DNA of 38,321 bases from assembly GCA_017623615.1 (NCBI GenBank), contig JAGAOT010000002.1, positions 1 through 38,321 of the forward strand. The letters are read 5' to 3'. Origin of the DNA: Clostridia bacterium. Its GTDB lineage: Bacteria; Bacillota; Clostridia; Oscillospirales; Acutalibacteraceae. Under the pieces are notes generated by a model. That model saw only the letters and a program-made list of their open reading frames with translations. It ran no database searches and was not told the DNA's origin. The position numbers and the translations under genes are program-made. Below, piece by piece: positions 2,401-12,646 of this stretch (positions are counted from its first letter, which is position 1; each line of letters opens with the position of its first letter).

Positions 2401-4149
2401 ATGGATATACATAGCGTTAGAATGCAAATGAGAATGAAAAGCATATATGAGATTCCGCTCAGGGTAACATATTATGCCCGTGTTTCGACGGACAGCGATG
2501 AGCAGTTGAATTCACTCGGCAATCAGGTAAGCTTTTACGAGAATTTTATCCGTAAGCATCTTCCCTGGACTTTTGTGCCGGGTTACGTTGACGAGGGCCT
2601 GTCGGGTATTTCGGTAAAGAAAAGAGAAAATTTCAACAGAATGATTGATGATGCGGCAGACGGAAAGTTCGATTTGGTTATCACCAAAGAAATCTCACGT
2701 TTTGCAAGAAATACTCTCGATTCGATTCAGTTTACCCGTCAGCTTCTCGGATACGGTGTCGGCGTATTCTTTCAGAATGACAACATAAATACCCTTGAAG
2801 AAGACAGCGAACTCAGACTTTCGATTATGTCCTCAATTGCGCAGGAAGAACTCCGCAAGCTTTCGAGCCGAGTTAAGTTCGGTCATCAGCAGGCAATCAA
2901 GTCAAACGTTGTTCTTGGCAACAGCAATATATTCGGCTACAAAAAACTTGATAAAAGGCTTGTTATTGACGAAGAACAGGCAGAAATGGTAAGAGAATTG
3001 TTTGAACTTTATGCAACCGATCAATACAGCATGAAGCAGATTGAAACAATTTTCTGGGACAAGGGATACCGTAATAACAAGGGCAATAAAATTGCTCACT
3101 CAACAATGTCAAATATGATTTCAAATCCCAAGTACAAGGGATACTATGTCGGCAACAAAGTCCGTGTTGTTGATATGTTCACAAAGAAACAGAAGTTCCT
3201 GCCACCTGAAGAATGGGTTATGTTCAAAGATGAAACAGGTGAAATTGTGCCTGCCATCGTTTCGGAAGAATTATGGGATAAGGCAAATGTGATTCTTCGA
3301 AGAAGAAGCGAAGATGTAAAAGCACGTCAGGGTATTTGTAACCATGCAAATCTGCTGACGGGTAAACTTTTCTGTATGGACTGCGGAACAGCATATTACC
3401 GCCGTGAATCCAAGGACAGAAGCGGAAACAAAAACAGTAAATGGATATGCTCGGGCAAAATCAAAGGCGGTTCCGATTCCTGCGCATCGTTCGCAATTTA
3501 TGAAGAAGAAATCAAACCGGTTCTTTTTGAAGTTTTCCGTGATACAAAAGCAAACGCCGATGCACTTGTTGAAGAATATTTGCGTGATTACGCAGAAATG
3601 ACTGATAACGGGAAATTACCCAAAAGAATAAAAGAACTCGAAAAGAAGATAGATTTTGCTTTGCAGAAAAAAGCAAAGCTGCTTGAATTCAATGTTGCAG
3701 GTCAGATTACCGACAGAGATTTCTTTGAGATGACAGAGCAATGCAACAATGAAATCAAAGAAACGGAAGAACTGATTAGAGAGCTTTCAGAAACACTTGA
3801 ATCAAGCGAAGAATTCAAAAAACACATCAATGCCGTTCGCAGTGCGATTGCCGCAGCTCAGTCTGATGCGAGATGCGGAATAATTTCAAAAGAATTCGTT
3901 GATACCTATATAGATAAGATTTATGTGACTCCCGTTGATGAGAATACGATGAAGTTAAGTATCAAGATTTTCTCAGGAGAATCAACGGAAAAATACCTCG
4001 AAAAGTTCAGACGTCACGTGGGACAAATGAAGTCCGTATCTGACAGCCACACAAAAAATCAAGGAATATCAACGGTTTCAGGCTCTGAAAATTCTGCGGG
4101 TCAAACGAGCAAGAAGATGATTGAGGCTTATGAAAACGGCATGAAATAA
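2401..4149 (+). CDS. Large serine recombinase (integrase/excisionase of the element)
   Basis: This 582-residue protein catalyses site-specific integration and excision of the element. The N-terminal resolvase domain has the nucleophile Ser29 in YYARVST, with the conserved EISRFARN and the E helix around SSIAQEELRKLSSRVK. The Recombinase domain follows (about 175-285, with GYKK and NPKYKGYYVGNK). A zinc ribbon occupies roughly 330-375 (CMDCG and CSGK, with a later Cys). A Lys/Glu-rich coiled coil covers about 405-480. This layout is that of TndX/TnpX-like transposon recombinases. It is the last gene of the element, and the attachment site must lie just beyond its stop codon. The length is normal and I see no disruption. 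Confidence 0.93.
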   Translation: MDIHSVRMQMRMKSIYEIPLRVTYYARVSTDSDEQLNSLGNQVSFYENFIRKHLPWTFVPGYVDEGLSGISVKKRENFNRMIDDAADGKFDLVITKEISRFARNTLDSIQFTRQLLGYGVGVFFQNDNINTLEEDSELRLSIMSSIAQEELRKLSSRVKFGHQQAIKSNVVLGNSNIFGYKKLDKRLVIDEEQAEMVRELFELYATDQYSMKQIETIFWDKGYRNNKGNKIAHSTMSNMISNPKYKGYYVGNKVRVVDMFTKKQKFLPPEEWVMFKDETGEIVPAIVSEELWDKANVILRRRSEDVKARQGICNHANLLTGKLFCMDCGTAYYRRESKDRSGNKNSKWICSGKIKGGSDSCASFAIYEEEIKPVLFEVFRDTKANADALVEEYLRDYAEMTDNGKLPKRIKELEKKIDFALQKKAKLLEFNVAGQITDRDFFEMTEQCNNEIKETEELIRELSETLESSEEFKKHINAVRSAIAAAQSDARCGIISKEFVDTYIDKIYVTPVDENTMKLSIKIFSGESTEKYLEKFRRHVGQMKSVSDSHTKNQGISTVSGSENSAGQTSKKMIEAYENGMK

Positions 4150-12167: not shown

Positions 12168-12239
12168 TTTTTCACCTCCGCATCTCTATGGGAAATATTT
12201 TATCATTTATTATTTATTTTGTAAATATATAAAGAAAAA

Positions 12240-12266
12240 ACGAAGTGCCGAAGCACTCCGTTTTTT
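12240..12266. terminator. Bidirectional terminator with UUCG loop
   Basis: Stem 12240-12248 with 12253-12261 closes a loop that reads TTCG on the minus strand. A-runs on one side and T-runs on the other give a U tail in both directions. It ends the SOS-type gene at 12295 and separates it from the GH43 operon. Confidence 0.85.
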
Positions 12267-12294: not shown

Positions 12295-12561
12295 TTAAGC
12301 AACCTGATGTGAGCTGCCGCGAACAACAGTAAGCACGGGAGCCTCTTCATAAATATCTTCGGGGGCTCTTGCCTGAACTCTTGCACGCATTGCGGCCGCT
12401 TCTCTCTGCTTGCGAAGGCGGCGGTTGCGTCTGTGGATTTTAATTGCTCTTGCAAGCTTAACTTCAAAAGCAACAATCTTTTTTTCATTTATAAAGCCGA
12501 CAATCAGCAGCACTACTGCCGCAAATTCGAAAACTGTTTTGATAATCTCTGCAAAATTCAT
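12295..12561 (-). CDS. Small single-span membrane protein behind an SOS-type promoter
   Basis: This 88-residue protein begins MNFAEIIKTV and has one membrane span at about 8-24 (KTVFEFAAVVLLIVGFI). A strongly basic helix follows (about 35-65, with HRRNRRLRKQ and MRARVQAR), then an acidic patch and a short tail ending SSHQVA. I chose ATG 12561, eight bases after AAAGGAGG (12569-12576). A start further upstream would lie before the -10 box. The promoter has three LexA-like boxes, so it should be induced by DNA damage. Topology and control recall SOS cell-division inhibitors such as YneA and SidA, but no LysM domain or sequence match is visible. The small-residue C-terminus could be a proteolysis signal. 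Both ideas are inference. Confidence 0.75.
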   Translation of the reverse strand: MNFAEIIKTVFEFAAVVLLIVGFINEKKIVAFEVKLARAIKIHRRNRRLRKQREAAAMRARVQARAPEDIYEEAPVLTVVRGSSHQVA

Positions 12562-12585
12562 TTTATATCCTCCTTTGAACAGGCG

Positions 12586-12646
12586 AAACATTTGTTCTAT
12601 GTGTTTATTATAGCAGGTGAACATTCGTTTGTCAATACAAATGTTC
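12586..12646 (-). promoter_or_regulatory. Consensus promoter with three LexA-like boxes
   Basis: On the minus strand TTGACA (plus 12630-12635), 17 bases, TATAAT (plus 12607-12612): a perfect sigma-A promoter. Three GAAC-N4-GTNN boxes surround it: plus 12635-12646 at the upstream edge of the -35, plus 12619-12630 in the spacer, and plus 12586-12597 (AAACATTTGTTC) just after the start site. The array is that of a tightly repressed SOS gene. Confidence 0.8.

Follow-up and report, generated by a model that had tools for sequence, protein, structure and literature searches.

A family of small single-span membrane proteins with LexA-type operators in gut Clostridia: candidate SOS checkpoint proteins and probable division inhibitors

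Our analysis of a 38,321-nucleotide stretch of DNA from a Clostridia bacterium (the window hereafter) revealed an 88-codon gene on the minus strand that encodes a single-span membrane protein, the promoter of which is packed with LexA-type boxes. That the gene belongs to the LexA (SOS) regulon is well supported by sequence comparison across the lineage, and on balance we favor the view that its product is a membrane checkpoint protein under LexA control that is rapidly degraded and probably inhibits division.

The gene and its flanking signals are located as follows.

12295..12561, minus strand: 88-aa ORF, SOS-type single-span membrane protein (from homologues and dN/dS)
12569..12576, minus strand: Shine-Dalgarno sequence AAAGGAGG (read from sequence)
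12235..12266, minus strand: intrinsic-terminator-like hairpin, 3' of the gene (sequence reading)

The 88-codon frame extends from an ATG at 12561 to a stop at 12297-12295. The mechanically called ORF opens at 12624 and would yield 109 aa, as against 88 aa from 12561; we preferred the latter start because a Shine-Dalgarno sequence is found there and the homologues begin there. For family-wide counts, 130 of 131 members were read, with start codons picked by script; the weakest match (G713) was left out and second matches per genome were not counted. When compared with seven named relatives, the 88-aa ORF displayed a dN/dS of 0.13-0.24, and it was intact (at least 50 aa, with a stop) in 128 of the 130 members, the exceptions being G591 (only 32 aa) and one other member without a stop within the fetched stretch. 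The dN/dS values and the conservation in relatives rule out a chance or non-coding ORF, and by these comparisons the 88-aa ORF is a real gene. Thus, the clean 88-residue ORF of the original prediction held at 12561-12295 of the minus strand, as did its presence in close relatives, which had been named beforehand as a test.

Upstream of the gene, the promoter and the boxes are arranged as follows, with box scores given as matches to GAAC-N4-GTTC.

12630..12635, minus strand: -35 hexamer TTGACA (consensus match)
12607..12612, minus strand: -10 hexamer TATAAT, with TG before it (consensus match)
12635..12646, minus strand: LexA-type box 1, GAACATTTGTAT, abutting the -35 hexamer (6/8)
12619..12630, minus strand: LexA-type box 2, AAACGAATGTTC, within the spacer (7/8)
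12586..12597, minus strand: LexA-type box 3, GAACAAATGTTT, directly after the -10 hexamer (7/8)

The promoter matches the consensus at 12 of 12 positions, with a 17-nt spacer and a TG ahead of the -10 hexamer, so that both the perfect TTGACA-17-TATAAT promoter and the three packed boxes that had been described beforehand were confirmed. In box 2, the initial GAAC appears on the plus-strand reading only, and the site of box 3 is the commonest box position across family members. Within the window, single boxes are no better than chance: GAAC-N4-GTTC with at most one mismatch occurred 14 times versus 13.6 expected, and the tighter pattern GAACAWWTGTTY occurred 8 times versus 3.1 expected, a count reached in 3 of 100 shuffles. 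What makes the boxes significant is their clustering on a perfect promoter and, chiefly, their conservation in relatives.

We therefore give most weight to the upstream regions of the family. A box matching at 7/8 or better was present within 200 nt upstream in 115 of the 130 members read (64 of them perfect), versus 9 of 127 (none perfect) in the 220 nt downstream that served as a control; in a reduced set of 81 members sharing less than 55% similarity, 72 retained an upstream box. Boxes lay on the promoter in all 15 strong genus loci (own genome included) and in all 28 named loci, these two sets being partly the same contigs. The usual layout was nearly fixed, with GAACATTTGT fused to TTGACA and GAACAAATGTTT, or its variant ending in C, right after TATAAT, and a promoter of 11 or 12 matches out of 12 was found in 116 of 130 members versus 5 of 650 shuffled sequences. 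That the boxes would stay with the gene had likewise been named in advance as a test, and it was borne out at each of these three scales.

Fifteen of the 130 members had no box of at least 7/8. In five of these (G438, G496, G470, G544 and G597), LexA was absent or weak (no match, or E above 1e-8), and four others (G610, G632, G537 and G591) carried 6/8 boxes at the promoter. In the remaining six (G646, G492, G692, G516, G575 and G494), we found no box at the promoter, weaker ones included, despite the presence of LexA. Loci L283, L290 and L266, which lack a promoter LexA box in genomes with LexA, have in common ACATCTTGTG between the hexamers; L273, another such locus, carries ATATCTTGTG, and L236, likewise box-less, differs. 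Perhaps the operator has changed at box-less promoters in LexA-bearing genomes.

As for the distribution of the gene, a protein search of the genus returned 15 strong loci, own genome included, at E 1.7e-8 or better. A 23-sequence profile detected the gene in 28 of 45 genus genomes, and with a 31-sequence profile, matches came from 131 of the 345 GTDB-family genomes, spread over 41 of the 107 genera sampled. The 28 named loci belong to metagenome-assembled genomes labelled Clostridia, Oscillospiraceae, Ruminococcaceae or Clostridiaceae, many of them from the ruminant gut, and one is a Candidatus Onthovicinus (NCBI Oscillospiraceae). No convincing match was found outside the GTDB family in an order search of 394 genomes and a class search of 206. 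More specifically, the order search gave 18 matches at E ≤0.01, of which 14 (own genome included) were in the same family and four were marginal (E 9.5e-4 to 0.0099), and the class search gave three, two in the family and one marginal (E 0.00998). Genus-search matches at E 0.05-1 were taken as chance; the one that was read (L018) had no box. Second, box-less ORFs resembling the span and an EDKL-x-x-FE motif were also seen at L160 and L161 (G253, contig C36) and L159 (G348, contig C7); they are perhaps mobile or older copies.

The gene and LexA occur together. In the genus, 27 genomes had both, 16 had neither, one had the gene only and one had LexA only (Fisher p 4e-10), at a LexA cut-off of E<1e-12 that was chosen after the table was seen; at a cut-off of 1e-3, LexA was present in 27 of 28 carriers versus 9 of 17 non-carriers. 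Family-wide, LexA was matched in 128 of 131 carriers versus 165 of 214 non-carriers (p 2e-8). Both p values are too small, because the genomes are related, and the direction is clear. The profile had no match to the gene in 165 of the 293 LexA-bearing family genomes, a figure to be read with the promoter search below, according to which the profile misses some members. The LexA of the window's own genome is complete, having the Ala-Gly cleavage site and the catalytic Ser and Lys, which we take to be the diagnostic residues of a cleavable LexA, and the same kind of box precedes lexA, uvrB and dinB in that genome (gene names from reading the translations). A perfect box also occurs at L028:1015-1026 (G000, contig C14:22414), flanked by dinB and by a divergently oriented ORF whose start is signal-like and whose sequence is peptidoglycan-binding-like by reading; this ORF could be a second SOS envelope gene.

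We also searched 200 family genomes with the promoter signature GAACATTTGTNTTGACA, without using the protein. The signature was written from promoters already seen, so the search is blind to the protein and not to the family. By comparison of positions, 31 of the 35 exact sites lay directly upstream of members found by the profile. Two more (in G521 and G523) led to short, single-span-like proteins with E-x6-E and an ending in -AA that the profile had missed; these are apparently divergent family members, their kinship resting on plan and promoter rather than on score. The remaining exact sites stood one before a VanZ-like ORF (L312, G316) and one before nothing recognizable. Among 23 one-mismatch sites, three were at members (G330, G462 and G537); 13 others were read and seven were left out. 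Of those read, two (G577 and G579) led to further apparent divergent members, two preceded RadC-like (L345, G542) and SRAP-like (L344, G336) ORFs, named from reading their translations, and nine looked like chance. The VanZ-like, RadC-like and SRAP-like ORFs behind the signature are possible further SOS genes. Thus, a promoter signature can find fast-evolving members that a protein profile misses.

The protein itself has three features that recur across the family.

12490..12546, minus strand: membrane span, residues 6-24, with the acidic residue E12 (hydropathy)
12463..12489, minus strand: juxtamembrane motif NEKKIVAFE, residues 25-33 (E-x6-E; conservation)
12298..12303, minus strand: C-terminal Val-Ala, candidate protease degron (family conservation)

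The one membrane span that had been predicted was found at residues 6-24 (19 residues, mean Kyte-Doolittle 2.4), and a span was present in all 128 members, with no second span in members longer than 64 aa. E12 was at least 90% conserved in the closer-member alignments (A2, A3 and A4) and not in the wider alignment A5; 112 of 128 members had an acidic residue somewhere between residues 7 and 15. The E-x6-E at the membrane edge was present in 122 of 128 members, and both of its glutamates, E26 and E33, were at least 90% conserved in A5. A basic segment follows next, and thereafter the tail is variable, members being 54-137 aa long. The mean net charge of the 30 residues behind the span was +4.6 versus -0.1 before it, and the charge was larger behind the span in 114 of 128 members, this excess being absent in 14. 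According to the positive-inside rule, the basic side of a span faces the cytoplasm, and the excess over 30 residues would therefore place the tail in the cytoplasm. This call depends on the more distant basic segment, because the first 15 residues behind the span average -0.1, the same as before the span; we accordingly regard the N-outside, C-inside topology as a prediction of moderate strength.

The small-residue C-terminus noted at the outset was found across the family, with Ala as the last residue in 106 of 128 members and in 67 of 81 non-redundant ones, versus 15 of 234 neighboring ORFs taken as background. (These counts cover 128 of the 130 members, the 32-aa ORF and the ORF lacking a stop having been left out.) The next-to-last residue was V in 56 cases, A in 27, C in 14 and I in 8, and tail positions -14 to -3 were about 7% identical between member pairs. 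Ala ended 90 of the 96 members of at least 69 aa and 16 of the 32 short members (50-68 aa). The C-terminus thus has the hydrophobic or small residue followed by Ala of an ssrA-like C-degron, a pattern that fails in 16 of the 32 short members. The tmRNA tag of the window's own genome reads DNNKVALAA, with VALAA endings in 11 of 14 genus tags; we considered identity of the C-terminus with the tag and rejected it, as the two are similar and not the same. In the sections covered of the respective reports, ClpXP depends chiefly on the final two Ala of the E. coli tag (PMC7652416), E. coli also degrades tags ending in LVA (PMC3511798), and the ClpX of Streptococcus mutans is served by hydrophobic C-terminal tripeptides (PMC10782952). 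The conservation of the C-terminal Ala is well supported by these alignments, and the protease is one that we infer.

Taken together, these features suggest how the protein might act. LexA, occupying as many as three operators at a promoter close to consensus, would keep the stand-alone gene off, and DNA damage, through RecA-driven cleavage of LexA, would lead to strong transcription. The span, with E12, and the E-x6-E would bind a membrane partner, with the septal peptidoglycan synthase complex (FtsW and its associated proteins) as the likeliest candidate, and this binding would hold back division; the free cytoplasmic -VA or -AA end would serve as a tmRNA-tag-like degron through which ClpXP could clear the protein once LexA is restored. 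In this scheme, the topology (from charge), the protease, the partner and the effect on division are all predicted. Tight repression combined with a strong promoter would fit a growth-stopping gene. Moreover, the multiple operators, the tracking of LexA, and the conserved span and last residue point to a protein that would be harmful in normal growth, useful in damage and quickly removed; by analogy, since the known membrane proteins of this kind are division inhibitors, we read it as a probable division inhibitor.

The same anatomy bears on two other readings. TisB of E. coli is a small SOS-induced membrane peptide that belongs to a toxin-antitoxin system with antisense RNA control. A TisB-type membrane toxin or dormancy factor, whose span and cationic helix insert into and depolarize the membrane, arresting growth instead of blocking division specifically, would likewise be small and basic, with one span and a tightly controlled promoter. 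We nevertheless consider it rather unlikely: the conservation of E12 in closer members and of E-x6-E throughout, together with a tail that varies except at its end, speaks for a partner and a degron more than for a bare pore. In addition, the gene seems to be transcribed alone, since across 29 loci no partner gene recurs save one divergent neighbor in 12. Likewise unlikely, in our estimation, is an SOS membrane anchor or adaptor with another job, such as envelope synthesis, sporulation control, chromosome segregation, or bringing a repair or protease factor to the membrane. Nucleic acid, lipids or a protein could be ligands of the basic tail, and the very different tail lengths (members of 54-137 aa) would suit such a role, but the tail is hardly conserved except for its end, which is unexpected for an adaptor, and it is the span and its edge that are conserved.

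Genomic context was examined at the same 29 loci, where no operon was found; the divergent neighbor present at 12 of them is metallophosphoesterase-like from reading its translation. The annotated neighbors in the window are ordinary chromosomal genes, and neighbors vary between loci. At the window's left end, an apparent mobile element carries a RepA_N/DUF6017 protein gene at 1231-2046 and, at 2401-4149, an ORF that reads as recombinase-like; at the edge of this element, two LexA-like boxes at 282-319, GAACATTTGTGC and GGACAAATGTTC, lie ahead of a small CxxC-containing ORF (394-606), and the element may be SOS-induced. Because that element has LexA-like boxes of its own, we also considered whether the 88-aa protein might be an accessory protein of a prophage or mobile element, induced through the host's LexA. 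We judge this very improbable, given that the neighbors are ordinary chromosomal genes that differ between loci and that, throughout one bacterial family, the gene goes together with LexA. A direct search also led us to reject an origin in phages, plasmids or viruses, as it returned no relatives from IMG/VR (query A1) or from phage or plasmid records (P0001, E 0.1).

Division inhibitors of the SOS response have arisen repeatedly, and their tiny size and lack of kinship make them difficult to recognize. We compared 67 members with Pfam, NCBIfam and PADLOC and 23 with PHROGs; the matches were scattered, weak and different from one member to the next, the best library E being 0.0045 among the matches listed. 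We found no fitting family in these four libraries, one search being judged on 25 of 28 families, and no LysM, either in the matches of the window protein or, for 67 members, among the matches listed (25 of 28 families); the original prediction of an unknown family lacking LysM is consistent with both results. A search of solved structures gave five matches (E 0.16-7.2), all to ribosomal proteins and all in the basic part, and these were not taken as relatives. Nor was sequence similarity to a known division inhibitor found in the library searches, SosA and SidA being compared by description. A literature search of titles and abstract starts, with subscription literature mostly outside its scope, found no account of such a protein in this lineage, and a gut SOS meta-regulon study that used COG-assigned genes does not mention one in the parts covered (PMC3998124). 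With the family present in 41 of 107 sampled genera of one gut lineage, and its operators and candidate degron mapped, both the proposed checkpoint and the release from it are directly testable.

Judged from sequence, the protein is small, single-span and LexA-controlled, which are the features of the functional class of SOS membrane division inhibitors, and a comparison with known systems shows how far the likeness goes. TisB resembles it in being a small SOS-type membrane protein and differs in having antisense RNA control, whereas here there is no partner ORF. SidA, at ~29 aa, is also small and membrane-bound, and by description is far shorter and without such a tail. The yneA gene lies next to lexA; in contrast, and as the original prediction had noted, the window gene does not, since the two are on different contigs in 26 of the 27 genus genomes with both and 119 kb apart in the other (G047). 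YneA of Bacillus subtilis and ChiZ of Mycobacterium tuberculosis resemble the window protein in being small, single-span and of SOS type, and the window protein differs from them in having no LysM, no place beside lexA, a tail predicted to be cytoplasmic, a degron-like Ala and no library match. As described in the excerpts covered, the SOS response induces YneA and ChiZ, both of them small proteins that span the membrane once, and YneA binds FtsW through its span (PMC13396833) and is cleared by CtpA and YlbL (PMC6051672); SidA of Caulobacter is a small membrane inhibitor acting on FtsW/N (PMC6051672; AF3 model in PMC13396833).

A further system of similar plan is SosA of Staphylococcus aureus, which, in the portions covered of its report, has 77 aa, a single span and no LysM, is SOS-induced and blocks division; it is conserved just behind the span and somewhat at the extreme C-terminus, which lies outside, with CtpA as the proposed protease (PMC6851548). 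The window family is likewise short, with a single span, no LysM, and conservation in a stretch behind the span and at the C-terminal end. In contrast, the C-terminus of the window protein is predicted to be inside from overall charge, and its gene has no fixed location, whereas SosA has one chromosomal location in staphylococci. In the accounts covered, the working parts of YneA and SosA are extracellular and needed for inhibition; given the predicted reverse topology, a shared mechanism is therefore not assured. The separate checkpoint of the original prediction is plausible. Tentatively, we suggest an undescribed SOS checkpoint of one gut Clostridia family in an N-out/C-in orientation, in which the span would stop the septal machinery and a tmRNA-tag-like end would bring about self-removal through ClpXP, replacing the extracellular proteases of YneA and (as proposed) SosA; we hold this reversed arrangement to be a doubtful one because the charge just behind the span fails to support a C-inside tail. 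In our estimate, the window gene represents a new protein family with a known type of regulation and probably a known type of job, one in which membrane orientation would be opposite to that of YneA and SosA and clearance would follow another route.
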